The notes under the pieces: model-generated
Told to the model about the DNA's origin: nothing
Database searches by the model: none
Seen by the model: only the letters and a program-made list of their open reading frames with translations
Made by a program: the position numbers and the translations under genes
Source: an uncultured Saprospiraceae bacterium
GTDB taxonomy: Bacteria; Bacteroidota; Bacteroidia; Chitinophagales; Saprospiraceae
Direction: 5' to 3'
DNA: 36,294 nucleotides
Assembly: GCA_937921595.1 (NCBI GenBank)
Contig: CAKZTD010000295.1
Span: forward strand, 1 to 36,294
Shown here: in pieces, positions 4,722 through 12,862 of the stretch
Layout of the letters: every line of letters begins with the position of its first letter
How positions within the stretch are numbered: position 1 is the first letter of the stretch

Positions 4722-5795
4722 CTAACTATGCTCCTTATTCATCACTGTCTCTTGATGATTAATCGACTCCTGGTGAATTGCTTTTAGCATCTTTCCAATA
4801 AACTCTTCACTCAAGCCTCTCACCTTCCCTTTCGCTGCAGCAGCTTCCAGAATTTCTGTCCACCGAGCTGGTTGCAGGATAGAAATATTATTTCGCTTTT
4901 TATACTCCCCAATACTATCTGCAACCTGCATCCGCTTCCCTAAAAGATCCAATACCTCATTATCAATCAAATCTATTTGACTTCGCAGATCTTCTATATT
5001 ATGCAAAAAATCTTCATTACTGGAAATGGTTTCTCTAAGCACTAAACTATCCATCAACTCTTTAAAAACCGCAGGTGTAATTTGTTGCTTCGCATCACTC
5101 CAAGCATTGTCCGGATCAGGATGCGTTTCAGTCATCACACCATGAAAATTTAAATCCATAGCTTTTTGAGCAACCGGTTGAAGAATATCTCGACGGCCAC
5201 AGATGTGGCTATTGTCACAAATAATAGTTAGATCAGGAAATTGCTGCATCAACTCAATCGGTAATTGCCACCTTGGAGTATTCCGATAAGTTTTATCATC
5301 GAACGAGGAAAAACCTCTATGGATGACTCCGATTTTTGTAATCCCTGCTTTGTAGATTCTTTCGATGGCTCCGATCCATAATTTCAAATCCGGATTAATC
5401 GGATTTTTAATCAAAACCGGAATATCTGTTCCTTCCAATGCATCTGCGATATCTTGAACAGCAAACGGGCTTACAGTTGTTCTTGCACCGATCCAAACCA
5501 CATCGATTCCGTACTTCATCGTTTCATAAACATGTCCAGCATTCGCAACTTCTGTCGTTACTTTTAGACCAACTTCTTCTTTTACTTTTTTCAGCCATTT
5601 CAAACCTACCGTTCCAACTCCTTCAAAAGAATTTGGGCGAGTTCGAGGTTTCCAAATCCCTGCTCTAAACAAATCAATATCTTGCTTTGCTAATGCTCTG
5701 GCAGTTTGCAGTACCTGATCTTCTGACTCAGCGCTACAAGGTCCGGCTACAATGAGTGGCCGTTCTTTCTTTTCAAAAATTGGTTGAAATTTCAT
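4722..5795 (-). CDS. Bifunctional DAHP synthase / chorismate mutase
   Basis: Last gene of the aromatic operon, 357 residues. The N-terminal domain (about 1-255) is a type I-beta (KDO8P-like) 3-deoxy-7-phosphoheptulonate synthase, condensing PEP and erythrose 4-phosphate: AGPCSAES at 17-24, KPRTRP at 49-54, GVIHRG at 156-161, the CDNSH block at 193-197 and TETHP at 222-226. The C-terminal domain (about 262-345) is an AroQ-type chorismate mutase with R271, R288 and K299 in the expected helical positions, turning chorismate into prephenate for pheA and tyrA upstream. Fusion of first and branch-point enzymes is common in Bacteroidota and usually allows the mutase to act as a regulatory domain. 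An intercistronic hairpin lies about 20 nt before the start. Confidence 0.95.
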   Translation of the reverse strand: MKFQPIFEKKERPLIVAGPCSAESEDQVLQTARALAKQDIDLFRAGIWKPRTRPNSFEGVGTVGLKWLKKVKEEVGLKVTTEVANAGHVYETMKYGIDVVWIGARTTVSPFAVQDIADALEGTDIPVLIKNPINPDLKLWIGAIERIYKAGITKIGVIHRGFSSFDDKTYRNTPRWQLPIELMQQFPDLTIICDNSHICGRRDILQPVAQKAMDLNFHGVMTETHPDPDNAWSDAKQQITPAVFKELMDSLVLRETISSNEDFLHNIEDLRSQIDLIDNEVLDLLGKRMQVADSIGEYKKRNNISILQPARWTEILEAAAAKGKVRGLSEEFIGKMLKAIHQESINHQETVMNKEHS

Positions 5796-5869: not shown

Positions 5870-6709
5870 TTAATCAATTATTTTACTAATGGTATTTGCT
5901 TTTCGAATCAATTTTGCAAATCCGTCAAAATCTTTTTTTATTAATAAACTTCTAAATTTCGCTAAAGTATTGATGTGTTCATCTAGAACATCCATAACGT
6001 TGTCTCTGTTCTGTTCGAAAATTGGAACCCACATTTCAGGTGAACTTTTTGCTAATCGAACTGTCGATCCAAAACCACCACTTGCCAATTCAAAAATCCT
6101 ATTTTCATCTTTTTCTTTTTCTAACACCGTTAAAGCCAAAGCGAATGAACTAATGTGCGAAATATGCGAAACATAAGCAGTATGAATATCATGAGATTTT
6201 GCATCAAGGTAAACAATGCTCATTTTCATGGATTCATATAATGCTTTAACCTTCTCAATGGCTTTCTCATTGCTATCTTCTACATCACAGATCACGGTAC
6301 AGCGATTGTCAAAAAGATTTGGAATCGCTGCTTCAGGGCCACTGTATTCTGTCCCTGCCATTGGGTGTGTTGCTACAAAGTTCCCTCGTTTGGGATGCGA
6401 TTTAATATGTTCTAGAAGTTTAGTTTTCGTAGATCCAACATCTAACACAATTTGATTTTCTACCAGATCTAATACTTTTGGTAATAGAATTTTCAAAGTA
6501 TCAACCGGAGTAGAAAGAATGACAATATCTGCTTTAGCAATACCTTCTTCTAAACTCAAATCCTCATCAATTAATCTTCGTCTTATTGCTTTATCTAGAT
6601 TTTCAGGATTCTTATCTACGCCAATAATATGTTTTGCAAATCCATTTTCCTTTAATGTAATGGCCATCGAACCTCCAATTAATCCGACACCTATAATTGT
6701 TATTACCAT
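5870..6709 (-). CDS. tyrA: Prephenate dehydrogenase
   Basis: Oxidative decarboxylation of prephenate to 4-hydroxyphenylpyruvate in tyrosine synthesis, 279 residues, about the normal size for the monofunctional enzyme without an ACT domain. The N-terminus has the dinucleotide fold GVGLIGGS (7-14) and an acidic residue at the end of the second strand (VDKN). Further family blocks are ILSTPVD, LDVGSTK, THPMAGTE and the helical region SHISHISSFALA. Third gene in the minus-strand order pheA, aminotransferase, tyrA, DAHP synthase. NAD versus NADP use, and prephenate versus arogenate preference, cannot be told from sequence alone. Confidence 0.93.
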   Translation of the reverse strand: MVITIIGVGLIGGSMAITLKENGFAKHIIGVDKNPENLDKAIRRRLIDEDLSLEEGIAKADIVILSTPVDTLKILLPKVLDLVENQIVLDVGSTKTKLLEHIKSHPKRGNFVATHPMAGTEYSGPEAAIPNLFDNRCTVICDVEDSNEKAIEKVKALYESMKMSIVYLDAKSHDIHTAYVSHISHISSFALALTVLEKEKDENRIFELASGGFGSTVRLAKSSPEMWVPIFEQNRDNVMDVLDEHINTLAKFRSLLIKKDFDGFAKLIRKANTISKIID

Positions 6710-6806: not shown

Positions 6807-7970
6807 TTATTTAATCAAAACCTTCTTTATCCTCACTAAAGCATTCTCAAAAACTTCCACTTCCGCACAAAGCGAAATCCGAATGTACGGATCTCCTTGA
6901 GATCCAAAAATCCCACCTGGTGTTAAAAAAACATTCGCATCATTAAGCATCCGATCTGAAAGTTCATAAGCATCTTTATAAGTTTCTGGAACCCTTCCCC
7001 AAACAAACATCCCGCCTGCATCTTCCTGACAAGTACATTCCAACAGATTCATAATGTCCATTACTTTTTTCCTTCTCCTTTTATAAATTTTATTGATATC
7101 TGCATACCAATTTTCATCTAAAGATAAGGCTTGTACTGCTGCTAACTGTGCCGGCAAAAACATCCCTGAATCCATGTTGGATTTAAATTTCAAAATCTCT
7201 TTTAATAAGTCAGCGTTTCCCGCCATCATTCCGATTCTCCAACCGGCCATGTTATGAGATTTACTCAGAGAATTCAATTCAATGGCAACTTCTTTTGCAC
7301 CTTCAATTGACAATATGCTTCTCGGTGAATTCAAAACAAAACTATATGGATTATCGTTGACAATTAGGATGTTATTTTTTTTCCCAAATGCTATTACTTT
7401 TTTATAAAAATCAAAAGTAGCTGGAGCTCCAGTTGGCATATGAGGATAATTGGTCCACATAATTTTCACTCTCGAAAGGTCTTGCTTTTCTAATACTTCC
7501 AAATTTGGAAGCCAATTATTTTCTTCTGAAAGCAAATATTCTACGGGCTTTGCTCCTGCCAACAAAGCAGTTGCTCGGTAAGCTGGATATCCAGGATTTG
7601 GAATTAAAACTTCATCTCCTTCTTGCAAAAAAGTCATGCTTATGTGCATGATTCCTTCCTTTGATCCAATCAAGGGAAGTATCTCTTTTGCTGCATCTAA
7701 ATCAACTGCAAAATGTTTTTTATACCACGCTGAAAACGCGGTTCTTAACTGAGGAGCACCGACATAAGACTGGTATTTATGATGACCGTCTTTTTGACTT
7801 TCTAAAATTAATCTATTGATTACTTCCTTTGCTGGTGAAAGGTCAGGGCTTCCTATTCCTAGGTTCAAAATATCTTTCCCTTGCGCTCGCATGGCAGCAA
7901 TTTCTTTCAACTTCTTTGAAAAGTAATACTCCTTTATTTGCTTAATTCTATCTGCAGTTTCAATCTTCAT
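6807..7970 (-). CDS. Class I/II PLP aminotransferase of the aromatic operon
   Basis: Fold-type I aminotransferase, 387 residues. The Schiff-base lysine is K237 in SLSKSHNMAGWRIG, the substrate/PLP loop is NYPHMPTG (174-181), the PLP-pyridine aspartate D206 lies in VNDNPY, and the tyrosine block PGYPAY is at 126-131. It overlaps the end of pheA by 11 bp and lies between pheA and tyrA, so transamination of phenylpyruvate and 4-hydroxyphenylpyruvate (or prephenate) is the likely job. By sequence alone it is also close to aspartate and LL-diaminopimelate aminotransferases, so automatic annotation may name it so. Confidence 0.92.
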   Translation of the reverse strand: MKIETADRIKQIKEYYFSKKLKEIAAMRAQGKDILNLGIGSPDLSPAKEVINRLILESQKDGHHKYQSYVGAPQLRTAFSAWYKKHFAVDLDAAKEILPLIGSKEGIMHISMTFLQEGDEVLIPNPGYPAYRATALLAGAKPVEYLLSEENNWLPNLEVLEKQDLSRVKIMWTNYPHMPTGAPATFDFYKKVIAFGKKNNILIVNDNPYSFVLNSPRSILSIEGAKEVAIELNSLSKSHNMAGWRIGMMAGNADLLKEILKFKSNMDSGMFLPAQLAAVQALSLDENWYADINKIYKRRRKKVMDIMNLLECTCQEDAGGMFVWGRVPETYKDAYELSDRMLNDANVFLTPGGIFGSQGDPYIRISLCAEVEVFENALVRIKKVLIK

Positions 7971-8787
7971 AATGTATTCCTTTTTTGTAACGACCTAAAA
8001 CCAAAAAATCTTCTGTCTTATTTTTTAACACAGAAATAGTCGAACCAAATACAGCAGGATCAGCTAGAACAAAATCTACATAGAACATATAATTCCATCG
8101 ATTTCCAATAATAGGAAAAGATTGTATTTTGGTTAGATTAGCACCATGATCAGCGAGTATTTTTAAGAGATCATGAAGGCTTCCAATTTGGTGAGGTAAA
8201 GCAAAGCAGATAGAAACTTTTTCAAAAGTTGATTCATCTAGCTTTGCATCTTTTTTTTCTAAAGACAAAAATCGAGTATAATTTTGTTTATTCGTTTCGA
8301 TACTACGAGAAAGAATTTCTAGCTCATATAAATTAGCAGCCATTTCACTCGCGATAGCTCCTACCCTTTTTTGTTTTGATTGAAAAATTTTCTTAGCACT
8401 TAATGCGGTATCTTCAGCTTCAACCAATCGGATATGAGGGTATTTTTTAAAAAATGTTCTGCATTGAGCTATAGCCATAGGATGAGAAAATACTTCGTCT
8501 ATTTCATCTATTGATTGCCCTGGCATTGCCATTAGATTGTGTTTAATTCGGAGATAAATCTCACCAGTAACATCTAGGGTAGATTCTCGAATTAAAGGGA
8601 AATTTTGAACGAGTGTTCCTGCAATTGAATTTTCTATTGCCATCATTCCTCCATCATATTTTTTGCTTTGTATGATGAGATCATTAAAGGTAATGGCCGG
8701 TACGATGTCAATCGGATCTTTGTGATAATTCCGGGCAGCTATTTCGTGGAATGCTCCTCTTACGCCTTGTATTGCTATCTTTTTCAT
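7960..8787 (-). CDS. pheA: Prephenate dehydratase
   Basis: Monofunctional prephenate dehydratase, 275 residues, giving phenylpyruvate. The catalytic domain (1-180) has GVRGAFHE (8-15), the substrate loop AIENSIAGT (50-58), SHPMAIAQC, and the TRF motif at 171-173. The C-terminal ACT domain (about 192-270) normally gives feedback inhibition by phenylalanine; the usual ESRP block reads KIQSFPI here. First structural gene of the aromatic operon. The stretch upstream (8855-9180) contains an aromatic leader peptide and attenuator, so expression is probably tied to charged tRNA-Phe/Tyr as well. Confidence 0.95.
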   Translation of the reverse strand: MKKIAIQGVRGAFHEIAARNYHKDPIDIVPAITFNDLIIQSKKYDGGMMAIENSIAGTLVQNFPLIRESTLDVTGEIYLRIKHNLMAMPGQSIDEIDEVFSHPMAIAQCRTFFKKYPHIRLVEAEDTALSAKKIFQSKQKRVGAIASEMAANLYELEILSRSIETNKQNYTRFLSLEKKDAKLDESTFEKVSICFALPHQIGSLHDLLKILADHGANLTKIQSFPIIGNRWNYMFYVDFVLADPAVFGSTISVLKNKTEDFLVLGRYKKGIHYED

Positions 8788-8854: not shown

Positions 8855-8882
8855 AAAAAAAGCTCCGGTGTTATCGGAGCTT
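8855..8882 (-). terminator. Attenuator terminator upstream of pheA
   Basis: On the minus strand, 8-bp arms AAGCTCCG (8882-8875) and CGGAGCTT (8867-8860) with a 7-nt loop are followed by T residues to 8855. This textbook intrinsic terminator lies 68 bp before the pheA start, inside the leader transcript, with no complete gene between the promoter and it except the leader peptide. Confidence 0.85.
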
Positions 8883-8920
8883 AAACTATTTGTCAGTGTG
8901 AATGACATTGCAATAGCAAA

Positions 8921-9036
8921 GGCTCCTTTTGGTAGTCCAAAAAAGTAATAAAAATAATATTTAAAATTTGTCGCTAACATTTGTTAGTCCTTGATTAGGT
9001 AAACTAAAAAGGAGCCTCACAATGGAAGCTCCTTTT
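8921..9036 (-). promoter_or_regulatory. Mutually exclusive stems of the phe/tyr attenuator
   Basis: Segments in minus-strand order: A 9036-9026 (AAAAGGAGCTT), B 9016-9006 (GGCTCCTTTTT), C 8930-8921 (AAAAGGAGCC), then the terminator arm D 8882-8875. A pairs with B over 9 bp, B with C over a perfect 10 bp, and A with D over 7 bp (GGAGCTT with AAGCTCC). D pairs with its own partner to make the terminator. These overlapping pairings are what an antitermination switch requires. A:B followed by T5 might itself stop transcription. Confidence 0.7.
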
Positions 9037-9067
9037 ATATATTTTTTAAATAATAACTTTAGCCTCT

Positions 9068-9130
9068 TTATACTTGGGTATAAAAATAAAAGCTAAAATA
9101 GAAAGTGTTATTATTATTAATTTGGTTCAT
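9068..9130 (-). CDS. Phe/Tyr leader peptide (attenuator, 20 codons)
   Basis: A 20-codon ORF, ATG at 9130-9128 and TAA at 9070-9068. Residues 10-17 read FYFSFYFY, that is four Phe and three Tyr codons in eight. The start lies about 20 nt after a good promoter box (9157-9150) and the ORF is followed by alternative hairpins and a terminator before pheA. Codons TTT-AGC-TTT can also pair (8 bp with two G-U) with bases 9064-9057 just past the stop, so a ribosome paused on the aromatic codons would disturb the first stem. It matches in design the E. coli pheL and pheST leaders. The peptide itself need have no function. Confidence 0.8.
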   Translation of the reverse strand: MNQINNNNTFYFSFYFYTQV

Positions 9131-9149
9131 TTTACAAAAACTTATATTA

Positions 9150-9180
9150 CAAACGTAAGGTGTTTTATTATTAGACGCAA
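9150..9180 (-). promoter_or_regulatory. Promoter of the aromatic amino-acid operon
   Basis: On the minus strand a TTG (-33 like) at 9180-9178 is followed 20 bp later by TACGTTTG (9157-9150), a perfect TAnnTTTG box. Transcription would begin about 9145, leaving about 15 nt before the leader peptide start. Confidence 0.65.
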
Positions 9181-9307: not shown

Positions 9308-11482
9308 TTACTCTGTTTTAAAAATAGAAAGATCGATTCCTTTATTTACTTTCACAGACTCTACTTTCATTTCTAAAGGCACTGGAGCCATTCCTGTCAA
9401 AGTATTTAAATGCGGAAACATAATCCCATCTACTTCTTTATAATCACTAAGATCAGTCGTAACTGTTGCTCCTTGTTGGGTAGCAACTTCTCTTATTTTC
9501 AAACTAGTCTCTACCGCAAAGTAATTGGTCGTTTTCTCTCCAGAAGGAGATTCTATATCCAAAACATATGCATTCACTCCATCAATAGTTTCAGCGCCAG
9601 ATAGTTTTAGTTTATATCCGTTTTCTGCATATTTTCTTTCAGGAAATAAAACTGCTAACTCTTTCATAGAAGCAACTACTGCACGGTCAGCAGGTAAGGT
9701 TTGTCCTTGTTGTTGAACCAAAACATCTCCTTTATTAAAAACTTGTTTAGACATAACTCCCATACCTTCCATTGTTGCTACATTCGAAAACATACCCTCC
9801 ATAATATTAATATCGACTGTCAATGATGCTCCCATCATCGAAGTTGACATTTTATAACTCAGATCTTTAACCATATTCAATTGAGCTTCTCCACCAATCG
9901 CAGCAATATAATCTGTTATCACAGTTTGAGCTGTTGTTCCTTCTGGAATTTTAAACGTTTCTTTTAAGCTTTCACCGTAAGTGTTGTAGTAATTTACTTC
10001 AGCAATCTTTCCTAGTTTTTCAGCTACTTCGCCTTTATTTCCAACAACTACAATGTGCGCATTATCTGGCTTGATGTATTTATTAGCCATGGCCATTACA
10101 TCAGCAGAAGTTACTTTACTCAATTTCTCTAGGTAAGTCGCATAATAATCTTGAGGTAAATTATATCGAATCGTATTCAATGCAAATCTTGCTACCGTTT
10201 GAGGATTTTCTAAAGATCTTGCAAAACTACCAGACAGATAATTTTTCACTAAGGTCAATTCTTTAGCTGGAACTGGCTCCGTTTTCAGACGATTCAATTC
10301 ATACATGATTTCGATGATTGAACTATCTGTCACTTCATTTCTTACTCCCGCATTTGTACTGAAAGATCCAACTTCTTTATCAGATCTCAAGCTTGATCGA
10401 ATTCCGTAAGTATATCCTTTTCCTTCTCTAAGATTACCATTCAAACGGCTTCGAAAAAAACCACCGAGTAAGGTATTCATAACAGAAGCTTTGATCGCAT
10501 CGCTAGAACCAGGTTTGAAATCTACTGGATAGGTAACGTTAATGATTGACTGAACGGCACCCGCTTTATTTACAAAATCAATAGTAGATTTAGCAGGAGC
10601 TTTTGGCATATCAAATTCAGCCTTAGGAACACTTGCTCTTTTCCAATCTCCAAAATATTTATTGACCATTGTCTTCGCTTCTACAGGTGTGATATCTCCC
10701 ACTACAATTAGGTAAGCTACATTTGGTCGAAAGTAATTATTGTAATGTTCTTTCACTTTGTCGATTGTAATATTTCCAACCGTTTCTTCTGTTTCTACTT
10801 CACCGTATGGGTGATCTTTTCCATAACGTACAACCTGAGCTACATTTCCAGCAATCGCATTGGGATCATCTTTCGAACTTGCTAAACCTGAAAGTGTTTG
10901 CTTTTTCACTTTTTCAAACTCATCAACTGGAAAGCTTGGATTTAATAAAACGTCAGACATGATTTTTAAAAGATTGTCAGAATGCTTCGTCAAAGAAGCT
11001 CCGAACATACCAGTCATCCTTGTACTTAAAGAAGCTCCCATAAAATCAATCTCTTCATCAATCTGAGCTTTCGTACGAGTAGCCGTCCCTCGGCTCATTA
11101 ATTGACCAGCCATACTAGCTGCACCAGAAAATTCTTTTTCTAAAATAGGATCTATCTCCAATGAAAGAGAAAAACTTACTCTTGGTAATTTATGGTTTTC
11201 AACAACAATTACTTTCAAACCATTTGCTACTTCAAATTGTTCGTAAGTTCCTAGTTCTATTTTTGGAGCAGGGCCTGGAGTTGGTGATTGGCTACGAAAA
11301 TCTCCTGCGACATCTTCAACTACGTCAACTATTTCATCAACGACTTCATCAGCAACTTCATCAGCAACTTCTTCCGTTTTATTTTTTACGTCTTCTGTCT
11401 TTTTTACCATGTCTCCAGTTTTTGGAGTACACTGACTAAAGAAAACTAAAGCTAAAAGGCTAAATAAAAATATATTCTTCAT
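9308..11482 (-). CDS. M16 family lipoprotein, non-catalytic subunit, with C-terminal LolA-like domain
   Basis: A 724-residue lipoprotein: signal peptide with lipobox FSQC (C18), then an acidic Val/Glu/Asp repeat (about 36-58) and a Pro-rich linker. Residues 78-500 make two M16 (insulinase-type) domains. The zinc motif HxxEH is absent: the aligned stretch GAASMAGQLMSRGT has S, G and Q in the three catalytic places, so this half is probably inactive. The C-terminal 200 residues (about 520-724) look like an outer-membrane lipoprotein-sorting (LolA/LolB-like) beta fold, ending in a DGIMFPH block; this part is assigned only by pattern. It follows the active M16 gene by 54 nt; the two likely form a heterodimeric periplasmic protease at the outer membrane. 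Confidence 0.88.
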   Translation of the reverse strand: MKNIFLFSLLALVFFSQCTPKTGDMVKKTEDVKNKTEEVADEVADEVVDEIVDVVEDVAGDFRSQSPTPGPAPKIELGTYEQFEVANGLKVIVVENHKLPRVSFSLSLEIDPILEKEFSGAASMAGQLMSRGTATRTKAQIDEEIDFMGASLSTRMTGMFGASLTKHSDNLLKIMSDVLLNPSFPVDEFEKVKKQTLSGLASSKDDPNAIAGNVAQVVRYGKDHPYGEVETEETVGNITIDKVKEHYNNYFRPNVAYLIVVGDITPVEAKTMVNKYFGDWKRASVPKAEFDMPKAPAKSTIDFVNKAGAVQSIINVTYPVDFKPGSSDAIKASVMNTLLGGFFRSRLNGNLREGKGYTYGIRSSLRSDKEVGSFSTNAGVRNEVTDSSIIEIMYELNRLKTEPVPAKELTLVKNYLSGSFARSLENPQTVARFALNTIRYNLPQDYYATYLEKLSKVTSADVMAMANKYIKPDNAHIVVVGNKGEVAEKLGKIAEVNYYNTYGESLKETFKIPEGTTAQTVITDYIAAIGGEAQLNMVKDLSYKMSTSMMGASLTVDINIMEGMFSNVATMEGMGVMSKQVFNKGDVLVQQQGQTLPADRAVVASMKELAVLFPERKYAENGYKLKLSGAETIDGVNAYVLDIESPSGEKTTNYFAVETSLKIREVATQQGATVTTDLSDYKEVDGIMFPHLNTLTGMAPVPLEMKVESVKVNKGIDLSIFKTE

Positions 11483-11536: not shown

Positions 11537-12862
11537 CTACAACTTATCTCCTTTTGGAAGATAGTGCAAAGTAACACGATTGCTTGTACTGAAATATTTT
11601 TTTGCAACTCTTTGGATATCTTCTTTGGTGACTTTCAAATATTTATCAATCTCTGTATTGATCAAGTTAGCATCTCCAAAAAACAAGTGGTAATTTGCTA
11701 ATGCAGCTGCACGATCTTGTACTCCAGCATTGCCAAGAATAAAATCATTCTCTACTTTATTTCTTAGTTTTTGAAATTCTCTATCACCAATCAATTCATT
11801 TTGTACTTTTGCAACTTCTGCATCCATTGCAGCTTCGAGTGCCATTACATCGGTTCCCATATTCGCAATACCAAAAGCAATTGAAATACTAGGATCTTCT
11901 AATGACAATGGAAAGTTTCCAACGAATAATGCTTTTTGTTGTTCATCCACTAATGACTTAGAAAGCCTTGAACTTGGCCCATCTGCCAATAAAGTAGACA
12001 ACATACTCACTGCATAAAAATCAGGAGTTCCTTGAGCAGGAATTCTATAAGATTGAATAACTGCCGGCAATTGAATATTATCATAAATCGTATCCCTTAC
12101 TTCTCCAGCCAATGGCGGTTCTACAATACTTGGACGGAATACTGGTTTTTTAGATCTTGGAATATCTTTAAAATAAAGATCGATCATCTTTTTAGTTTCT
12201 TCAATATTCAAATCTCCTGCAATTGACAATACCGCATTATTTGGAACGTAAAAATCTTCGTAAAACTGTTTGTAATCTTTCTCCTCCGCAGCATTTAAAT
12301 CATCCATAGATCCAATCGGAGACCAAGCATAAGGATGCTCAGTAAAAGAATGAGATAAAGCTTCTAAAAGAACAGTTCCATAGGGTTGGTTATCATATCG
12401 TTGTCTTTTTTCTTCTTTCACCACTTCTCTCTGAGTTTCTACTCCTTTGATATCTACTTTGGCGTGAAGCATTCTTTCTGATTCAATCCAAAGACCTAAG
12501 TTGATTTGGTTGGAAGGAAGAATTTCAAAATAAACTGTTCGATCTTGAGTCGTAAATGCATTCAAAGCACCTCCAGCATTTTGAATCAAAACATCTACTT
12601 GGCCTCGATCAATATTTTCGGAGCCTTCAAATAATAGATGTTCGAAAAAGTGAGCAAATCCTGTCCGATTCGTTTTTTCATTTTTAGAACCAACATGATA
12701 AGAAACGGTCACGGCAACAATTGGGGTAGATTTATCTTGTTGGAGGATTACATGTAATCCGTTATCCAAGGTATATTCTACGAATTCGATTTTGTTCATC
12801 TGGGCAAAAAGTCCAGTAAAACCGATAGAAAGAAAAAGAAATACGTTTAAAATACGCTTCAT
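11537..12862 (-). CDS. M16 zinc protease, catalytic subunit
   Basis: Secreted metalloprotease of the pitrilysin/insulinase family, 441 residues, with a signal peptide ending near LFAQ (20-21). The inverted zinc motif HFFEH is at 71-75 (H71, E74, H75), with the third ligand expected at E151 in VVKEEKRQ. Residues 30-230 form the catalytic half and 230-435 the second half-domain with YRIP (substrate loop, about 275). First gene of a two-gene operon with the non-catalytic M16 lipoprotein; such active/inactive pairs work as dimers that enclose peptides. A consensus promoter lies 47 bp upstream. Confidence 0.93.
   Translation of the reverse strand: MKRILNVFLFLSIGFTGLFAQMNKIEFVEYTLDNGLHVILQQDKSTPIVAVTVSYHVGSKNEKTNRTGFAHFFEHLLFEGSENIDRGQVDVLIQNAGGALNAFTTQDRTVYFEILPSNQINLGLWIESERMLHAKVDIKGVETQREVVKEEKRQRYDNQPYGTVLLEALSHSFTEHPYAWSPIGSMDDLNAAEEKDYKQFYEDFYVPNNAVLSIAGDLNIEETKKMIDLYFKDIPRSKKPVFRPSIVEPPLAGEVRDTIYDNIQLPAVIQSYRIPAQGTPDFYAVSMLSTLLADGPSSRLSKSLVDEQQKALFVGNFPLSLEDPSISIAFGIANMGTDVMALEAAMDAEVAKVQNELIGDREFQKLRNKVENDFILGNAGVQDRAAALANYHLFFGDANLINTEIDKYLKVTKEDIQRVAKKYFSTSNRVTLHYLPKGDKL

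Follow-up and report, generated by a model that had tools for sequence, protein, structure and literature searches.

Amino-acid attenuators are textbook single switches, and genes for nutrient biosynthesis are described as normally being under a single attenuator (available text of PMC3641672). In the Salmonella mgtCBR leader, by the same excerpt, two short open reading frames (ORFs) share one leader and both act on transcription into the operon (PMC3641672), and engineered pT181-type attenuators placed in series are cited as improving dynamic range (excerpt of PMC3753616). RNA-seq of Flavobacterium psychrophilum revealed a structured, Rfam-negative 5' element upstream of pheA that also occurs in other Flavobacteriaceae genera, and the same study gives strong clues for leader-peptide attenuation ahead of amino-acid operons, so that, on the available text, the single form in Bacteroidota is not wholly new (PMC9723704). 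The pheA locus described here lies in a 36,294-nucleotide stretch of DNA from an uncultured Saprospiraceae bacterium (the window) and appears to double such a switch. We read it as two complete classical ribosome-mediated transcription attenuators in series behind one promoter, a reading to which we assign a probability of about 0.83.

Results

Two leader/terminator units in front of the pheA operon

The minus strand of the window carries two leader/terminator units upstream of the pheA operon, in the order promoter, leader 1, terminator 1, leader 2, terminator 2, and pheA (Table 1); a gene with M16 peptidase domains borders them on the other side. All four genes of the operon serve Phe/Tyr synthesis or its first step, and their order is kept in 9 of 11 two-unit loci phylum-wide. 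The gene upstream of the leader (9308-11482, minus strand) matches M16 peptidase families, and the gene adjoining it (11537-12862, minus strand) is M16 peptidase-like by eye only.

Table 1. Parts of the pheA locus in the window, in order of transcription
Feature	Position	Strand	Basis
Promoter motif: TTG (9180-9178), 20 nt, TACGTTTG (9157-9150)	9150..9180	-	
Leader peptide 1, MNQINNNNTFYFSFYFYTQV, 20 codons, run FYFSFYFY	9130-9068	-	ORF list, shuffles, relatives
Segment 1 of unit 1, TTAGCTTTT, within the aromatic run, able to pair with segment 2	9088..9096	-	
Stop-codon hairpin 1, TTATAC CCAA GTATAA, spanning the last Tyr codon region and the stop codon	9068..9083	-	Covariation in relatives
Segment 2 of unit 1, GAGGCT, antiterminator 5' strand, one base past the leader stop	9066-9061	-	
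Terminator 1: segment 3 (9035-9025), segment 4 (9018-9008), T-rich tail	9035-9004	-	
Leader peptide 2, MLATNFKYYFYYFFGLPKGAFAIAMSF..., run YYFYYFF (8959-8939)	8980-8831	-	
Segment 2 of unit 2, GGAGC, antiterminator 5' strand	8922..8926	-	
Terminator 2: segment 3 (8882-8875), segment 4 (8867-8860), T tract	8882-8855	-	
pheA, prephenate dehydratase with ACT domain	7960..8787	-	
Class I/II aminotransferase	6807..7970	-	
tyrA, prephenate dehydrogenase	5870..6709	-	363.6 bits versus NCBIfam cut-off of 295
DAHP synthase fused to chorismate mutase	4722..5795	-	

An initial annotation of this DNA had named a TAnnTTTG promoter, the 20-codon leader with the run FYFSFYFY, and a terminator before pheA, and each of these is present, the U tract of the terminator ending about 68 nt from pheA. 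We take TTG/TAnnTTTG to be the Bacteroidota promoter type; transcription would then be expected to start near 9143. The ATG of leader 1 lies 19 nt beyond the TACGTTTG element. The first proposal, that the operon of pheA, the aminotransferase gene, tyrA, and the DAHP synthase/chorismate mutase gene is as a whole under leader-peptide transcription attenuation by both Phe and Tyr, is supported, and both codons occur in the run. What we revise is the architecture. The FYFSFYFY leader and the pheA-proximal terminator had been joined into one attenuator, and each belongs to a different switch; terminator 1, the second aromatic leader, and the antiterminator strand of unit 1 had been overlooked. The pairing A:B, taken before as a mere alternative folding, is a terminator-like hairpin (AAAGGAGCTTC...GAGGCTCCTTTTT, -15.1 kcal/mol) followed by its own Ts; a consensus terminator scan of the window reported just 8882-8860 and not this hairpin. 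The geometry that had seemed unusual, with segment A starting 32 nt after the leader stop, disappears as well, for that distance ran to segment 3 of unit 1, and segment 2 begins one base past the stop.

Both leader ORFs, whose translation is predicted, have 7 of 8 aromatic residues and counterparts in relatives. Of 5000 dinucleotide shuffles of the 520-nt intergenic stretch, 2 produced a single ORF in which 7 or more of 8 residues were aromatic and none produced two such ORFs; the real sequence has two. A scan of both strands of the entire window for an aromatic leader followed by a terminator returned units 1 and 2 and one weak third candidate (168-4, minus strand, 5 of 8 aromatic, -8.0 kcal/mol). 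A search of the window's own genome with one aromatic codon pattern, which leaders of other shapes would escape, gave 23 matches versus 39 for the backwards control, and around those 23 matches leader units were present at the pheA locus only.

One and two units across the Bacteroidota

Two sets of pheA loci were compared. The family/order set holds 150 loci, the window's own genome included, and is a partial sample, 206 of the 299 family genomes having had a match; the phylum set holds the best 80 of at least 592 public pheA loci and overlaps the first in some genomes (e.g., L021 and L054). Our strict finder called a unit where an ATG-initiated ORF of 8 to 60 codons with at least 5 of 8 aromatic residues was followed by a terminator 15 to 95 nt after the run, and counts were restricted to loci with at least 450 nt upstream, which dropped 6 short loci from each set. 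By these rules, two units precede pheA at 60 of 144 family/order loci, one at 68, and none at 16. Of 432 shuffled sequences (three per locus), 4 had one unit and none had two, and among the 144 reverse complements a single unit turned up once. The 74 phylum loci divide into 11 with two units, 57 with one, and 6 with none (shuffles, one unit in 1 of 222; reverse complement, 0 of 74). Three units were found at no locus of either set (144 and 74 loci). The search that the initial annotation had suggested, for a short Phe- and Tyr-rich ORF upstream of pheA in relatives, thus finds one at most of the family/order loci.

Two-unit loci are spread over 32 of the 70 genera in the family/order set. The named holders of two units are Phaeodactylibacter xiamenensis, Hymenobacter mucosus, four named Chitinophaga species, and Chitinophaga sp. 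CF418. On a PheA tree made by a quick method (103 rows of 110 loci, seven short ones having been dropped), the two-unit state calls for 10 changes, at least 2 of them forced by the starred branches, a count that does not separate gain from loss. Four loci (L038, L062, L064, and L094) have a Bacteroidota-like PheA on contigs labelled Lentisphaerae, Planctomycetaceae, or Sericytochromatia; these are perhaps mis-binned contigs. A terminator-like match at L002 had no leader unit and was set aside.

Like the run in the window, which mixes the two residues, the leaders of relatives are not confined to one of them: Phe and Tyr occur together in every distinct family/order leader (61 first, 61 second, and 69 single leaders), and single leaders outside that set have both in 51 of 53 cases. 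Two sensors ahead of an operon with two products might invite the idea of a division of labor, one leader sensing Phe and the other Tyr. We regard this as very improbable, because the runs of the two leaders have the same make-up (leader 1, F 0.53 and Y 0.30; leader 2, F 0.52 and Y 0.33) and all 61 distinct leaders of each kind hold both residues.

Terminator and antiterminator pairings are locus specific

Defining a strong leader as one with at least 6 of 8 aromatic residues, we found two of them at 70 loci; 68 of these loci have a terminator between the leaders and 68 have one after the second, compared with 14 and 16 of 210 shuffles, respectively. Single leaders have a terminator behind them in 128 of 128 cases (shuffles, 28 of 384). 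In first, second, and single units alike, spacer and segment 3 (antiterminator) and segments 3 and 4 (terminator) paired better when both partners came from one locus than when they were swapped between loci: all 12 tests, which covered loci of the family and loci beyond it, gave 0 of 2000 permutations as good, and with one locus per genus (31 genera) four antiterminator/terminator tests each gave 0 of 5000. Covarying stems, which the initial annotation had suggested looking for, are thus present in relatives, and this locus specificity argues that both units have been kept by compensatory change. Segment 2 of unit 1 starts at a median of 0 nt from the end of the stop codon, between -3 and +9 nt in 59 of 68 loci; the same range holds 33 of 68 second units and 53 of 128 single units.

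The same tests bear on the initial reading of one attenuator, in which segments A, B, C, and D would let leader 1 govern the pheA-proximal terminator, with A:B as the alternative structure. The complementarity of A:B, B:C, and A:D is real in the window, where the B:C and A:B duplexes are stable (-18.7 and -17.8 kcal/mol), but B:C spans two different switches. Over 63 genomes, B:C is not locus specific (own, -7.1 kcal/mol; swapped, -6.9; 366 of 2000 permutations no worse), and A:D is hardly specific (76 of 2000); when each genus is represented by a single genome, B:C shows a weak excess (-7.05 versus -6.52; 193 of 5000). A:B moreover has its own T run behind it, and a second leader with its own antiterminator lies in between. 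We therefore consider a single attenuator highly improbable and retain two in series. Two other cross-unit pairings did exceed swaps, that of unit 1 segment 3 with unit 2 segment 4 (-10.3 versus -8.8 kcal/mol, 0 of 2000) and that of the unit 1 spacer with unit 2 segment 3 (-8.6 versus -8.0, 20 of 2000), which suggests that the units of one genome are alike, as from duplication or shared make-up. We do not read this excess as working cross-pairing, though it may be.

Predicted switching of two stages in series

In each unit, a ribosome would translate a short ORF in which Phe and Tyr codons form a run. When charged tRNA-Phe or tRNA-Tyr is short, the ribosome would stall within the run and leave segment 2 free, which would pair with segment 3, the 5' arm of the terminator, before segment 4 has been made, and the polymerase would continue. 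When both amino acids are plentiful, the ribosome would reach the stop codon and cover segment 2, the 3:4 terminator would form, and transcription would stop. The polymerase would meet both switches in turn before pheA. Because both have to be passed, the leakage of one at plenty is expected to multiply with that of the other, giving a wider and steeper response than a single switch would.

Folding of transcripts cut before segment 4 gave family/order mean antiterminator probabilities of 0.74 (unit 1) and 0.75 (unit 2) with the ribosome over the run, against 0.21 and 0.17 when it sits at the stop codon. Unit 1 of the window went from 0.62 over the run to 0.02 at the stop codon, and its unit 2 reached 0.69 over the run. 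These values point to the classical direction, in which starvation would let transcription through. Shuffled spacers in tandem units already gave a mean antiterminator probability of 0.52, and the window's own antiterminators do not stand above shuffles, 3 and 6 of 20 being as good for units 1 and 2; the units that singly beat all 20 shuffles number 15 of 68 first, 29 of 68 second, and 48 of 128 single units. Once the whole terminator of the window has been made, equilibrium folding favors the terminator whatever the position of the ribosome, and a clear switch appears in full-length equilibrium folds of under half of the units (30 of 68 first, 29 of 68 second, and 31 of 128 single units). The ribosome-blocked folding suggested by the initial annotation hence brings out the switch in the cut transcripts and mostly not in the full-length ones, and the model needs cotranscriptional folding, with kinetics that would let 2:3 form first.

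The promoter motif supports the serial arrangement. We found TANNTTTG no more than 65 nt upstream of the leader in 54 of 59 first leaders, 1 of 61 second leaders, and 45 of 70 single leaders at family/order loci, against 17 of 564 windows further upstream and 21 of 274 reversed controls; outside that set, it precedes 9 of 11 first and 1 of 11 second leaders. A motif before leader 1 and not before leader 2 suggests that the two switches would lie in series on one transcript. These counts also weigh heavily against a separate promoter for each leader, which would yield two alternative transcripts with one attenuator each. Promoter types other than TANNTTTG could still serve leader 2, but the two sigma-70-like minus-strand matches in the window lie at 9194-9167 and 9137-9110 and not between terminator 1 and leader 2, and having come upon nothing in its support, we hold this arrangement to be quite improbable.

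The stages of the preferred serial model may differ in what they do without translation. With no ribosome present, the run codons of unit 1 (segment 1) can pair with segment 2 in a locus-specific manner (own, -6.5 kcal/mol; swapped, -5.0; 0 of 2000), and no such 1:2 signal was found in unit 2, where 1351 of 2000 permutations were as good. This test, which set the run codons against the 12 nt after the stop, covered the 58 first and 44 second units in which the leader stops no more than six codons beyond the run. Single leaders of the family also gave 0 of 2000, and the signal was less clear outside the family (first, 49 of 2000; single, 202 of 2000). Family/order mean antiterminator probabilities without a ribosome were 0.33 for first units, 0.33 for single units, and 0.63 for second units, and unit 2 exceeded unit 1 in 45 of 56 genomes (Wilcoxon P = 5.5e-6, kinship ignored); outside the family (11 loci each), the two hardly differ (0.66 and 0.71). 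The missing 1:2 signal in unit 2 leads us to predict read-through as its default without translation, and the two stages would then have opposite defaults.

Leader 2 overruns its terminator in this genome

The stop codon of leader 2 (8833-8831) lies past terminator 2 in the window, and the leader ends 43 nt ahead of pheA. At the same-genus loci L004, L005, and L006, the leader 2 stop precedes the terminator. Since leader 2 reads through terminator 2, unit 2 is perhaps leaky or decayed in this genome, or the overrun may be an assembly error. It could be, then, that only unit 1 works here and that unit 2 is decaying, its stop having drifted past the terminator so that ribosomes overrun it, as the comparison with the three same-genus loci would suggest. 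We judge this unlikely: the aromatic run, segments 2 to 4, and the T tract are all present, a stalled ribosome would still act as modelled, and the stretch may contain an assembly error. Judged from their sequences, the relatives rather than the window copy carry the support for the doubled design.

A hairpin reaching the stop codon

Leaders in the family often end in TTAYGG-N4-CCRTAA, in which the region of the last Tyr codon pairs with the bases that run to the stop codon. Five or more of the 6 pairs of this hairpin are present in 40 of 57 distinct first ends (swapped mean, 24.2; maximum, 32), in 32 of 58 second ends (18.5; 26), and in 25 of 66 single ends (13.1; 20). Beyond the family, 13 of 81 ends (swapped mean, 6.9; maximum, 13) gave no clear excess. 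Among ends starting with TTA, the third base of the Tyr codon and its partner were T-A in 22 and C-G in 14 of 41 first ends (5 made no pair), T-A in 16 and C-G in 11 of 27 second ends, and T-A in 15 and C-G in 9 of 26 single ends, with one T-G and one C-A. Fisher's test on T/C versus A/G gave 2.6e-10, 7.7e-8, and 3e-5, respectively, for sequences that are related and not independent; with one end per genus, 11 T-A and 9 C-G remained of 23 first ends and 10 and 5 of 15 second ends. Synonymous Tyr codons therefore change jointly with the base near the stop codon. The hairpin is maybe also the reason for the C-terminal GxP of 22 of 61 first and 22 of 61 second leaders. Like the pause hairpin treated in the available text of PMC1183508, it might, we guess, be a pause signal keeping polymerase and ribosome in step. 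The conserved Ser codon AGC in the run of leader 1 was considered as a further RNA element and rejected: of the 30 two-unit loci in the family/order set where AGC stands nine codons before the end, 18 have its reverse complement in the 8 nt after the stop and 12 do not.

The covariation also bears on whether the leader ORFs might be conserved small proteins acting in trans. Aromatic runs are conserved phylum-wide, which speaks for such proteins, but peptide length and sequence vary outside the run, the ORFs are tied to terminators, and Tyr codons that change synonymously with the base beside the stop point to selection on the RNA. We give trans-acting proteins almost no credence and keep to leader peptides that act through their own translation.

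Leaders before hisG, trpE, and pheS

All four genomes of the window's genus with a HisG match, its own included, have two His leaders before hisG, each followed by a terminator. In the window's own genome (L265, contig G000:C112), these leaders are MILIQLHQNSHHYNTSIT, with only 3 His in 8, and MNFNQNFHLHHHAFVERCKW; the other two-unit hisG loci are L257, L258, and L259 of the same genus and L395 of another. The hisG sample comprised 99 loci, taken from order relatives and from some of the family genomes in which HisG had a match (176 of 299). Of its 97 loci of at least 600 nt, 5 have two units, 80 have one, and 12 have none, and shuffles (one each) gave one unit in 1 of 97. Before trpE, a Trp-rich leader with a terminator behind it was present at 13 of 15 loci scanned, each time single, and at L268 to L280 these leaders are short, mostly with three or more consecutive Trp codons. 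No leader unit was found at the 26 pheS loci scanned out of 30 retrieved: aromatic ORFs at L297 and L315 were rejected for having no terminator within 95 nt, and the 383 nt upstream at L317 gave nothing.

Discussion

Together with the hisG loci, the pheA loci lead us to propose, tentatively and at somewhat less than even odds, that serial leader-peptide attenuation is a recurrent design, which would have arisen more than once before pheA and separately before hisG, with stages of opposite default, the first terminating when untranslated and the second reading through unless its leader is finished. If the defaults are opposite, the pair of stages would tell true amino-acid plenty apart from a mere lack of ribosomes and would respond steeply and multiplicatively. 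Because this switch occurs naturally in one and in two copies ahead of the same genes, the effect of serial attenuation on range and sensitivity can be tested directly, and so can the question of why some leaders (Phe/Tyr, His) are doubled when the trp leaders scanned are single.

Our results extend predicted leader-peptide control of pheA across the Bacteroidota and describe an RNA element that Rfam 15 fails to recognize in the loci scanned. Neither the window nor any of five further loci contained an Rfam 15 family at its gathering score, and the best score of Phe_leader (RF01859), 26.7 bits over unit 2, is below its cut-off of 55. Among the open-access papers searched, a scope outside which most subscription papers lie, none came to light that describes attenuators in series for the same amino acids. 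A 2010 comparative study by Lopatovskaya and colleagues reportedly may cover single leaders in Bacteroidota.

Among known systems, enterobacterial pheL/pheA resembles this locus in its Phe-rich leader, alternative antiterminator, intrinsic terminator, and control of pheA, and differs from it in that here the runs mix Phe and Tyr, two units lie in series, a hairpin reaches the stop codon, and the promoter is of another type. Unit 1, with segments pairing 1:2, 2:3, and 3:4, is like the trp and his leader attenuators, whereas unit 2 is without the 1:2 signal. The Salmonella mgtCBR leader also has its ORFs in a pair, but these sense different signals, ATP and proline, its stem-loops are unlike intrinsic terminators, and its operon is not one of amino-acid synthesis (available text of PMC3641672). 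The engineered pT181 attenuators likewise act two in series but are synthetic and controlled by antisense RNA (excerpt of PMC3753616). The pheA element of F. psychrophilum shares with ours the phylum, the gene, and the lack of an Rfam match; neither a Phe/Tyr peptide nor two units are described in the available text of that account, and the element is probably the single-unit form that we found in other Flavobacteriaceae (PMC9723704).
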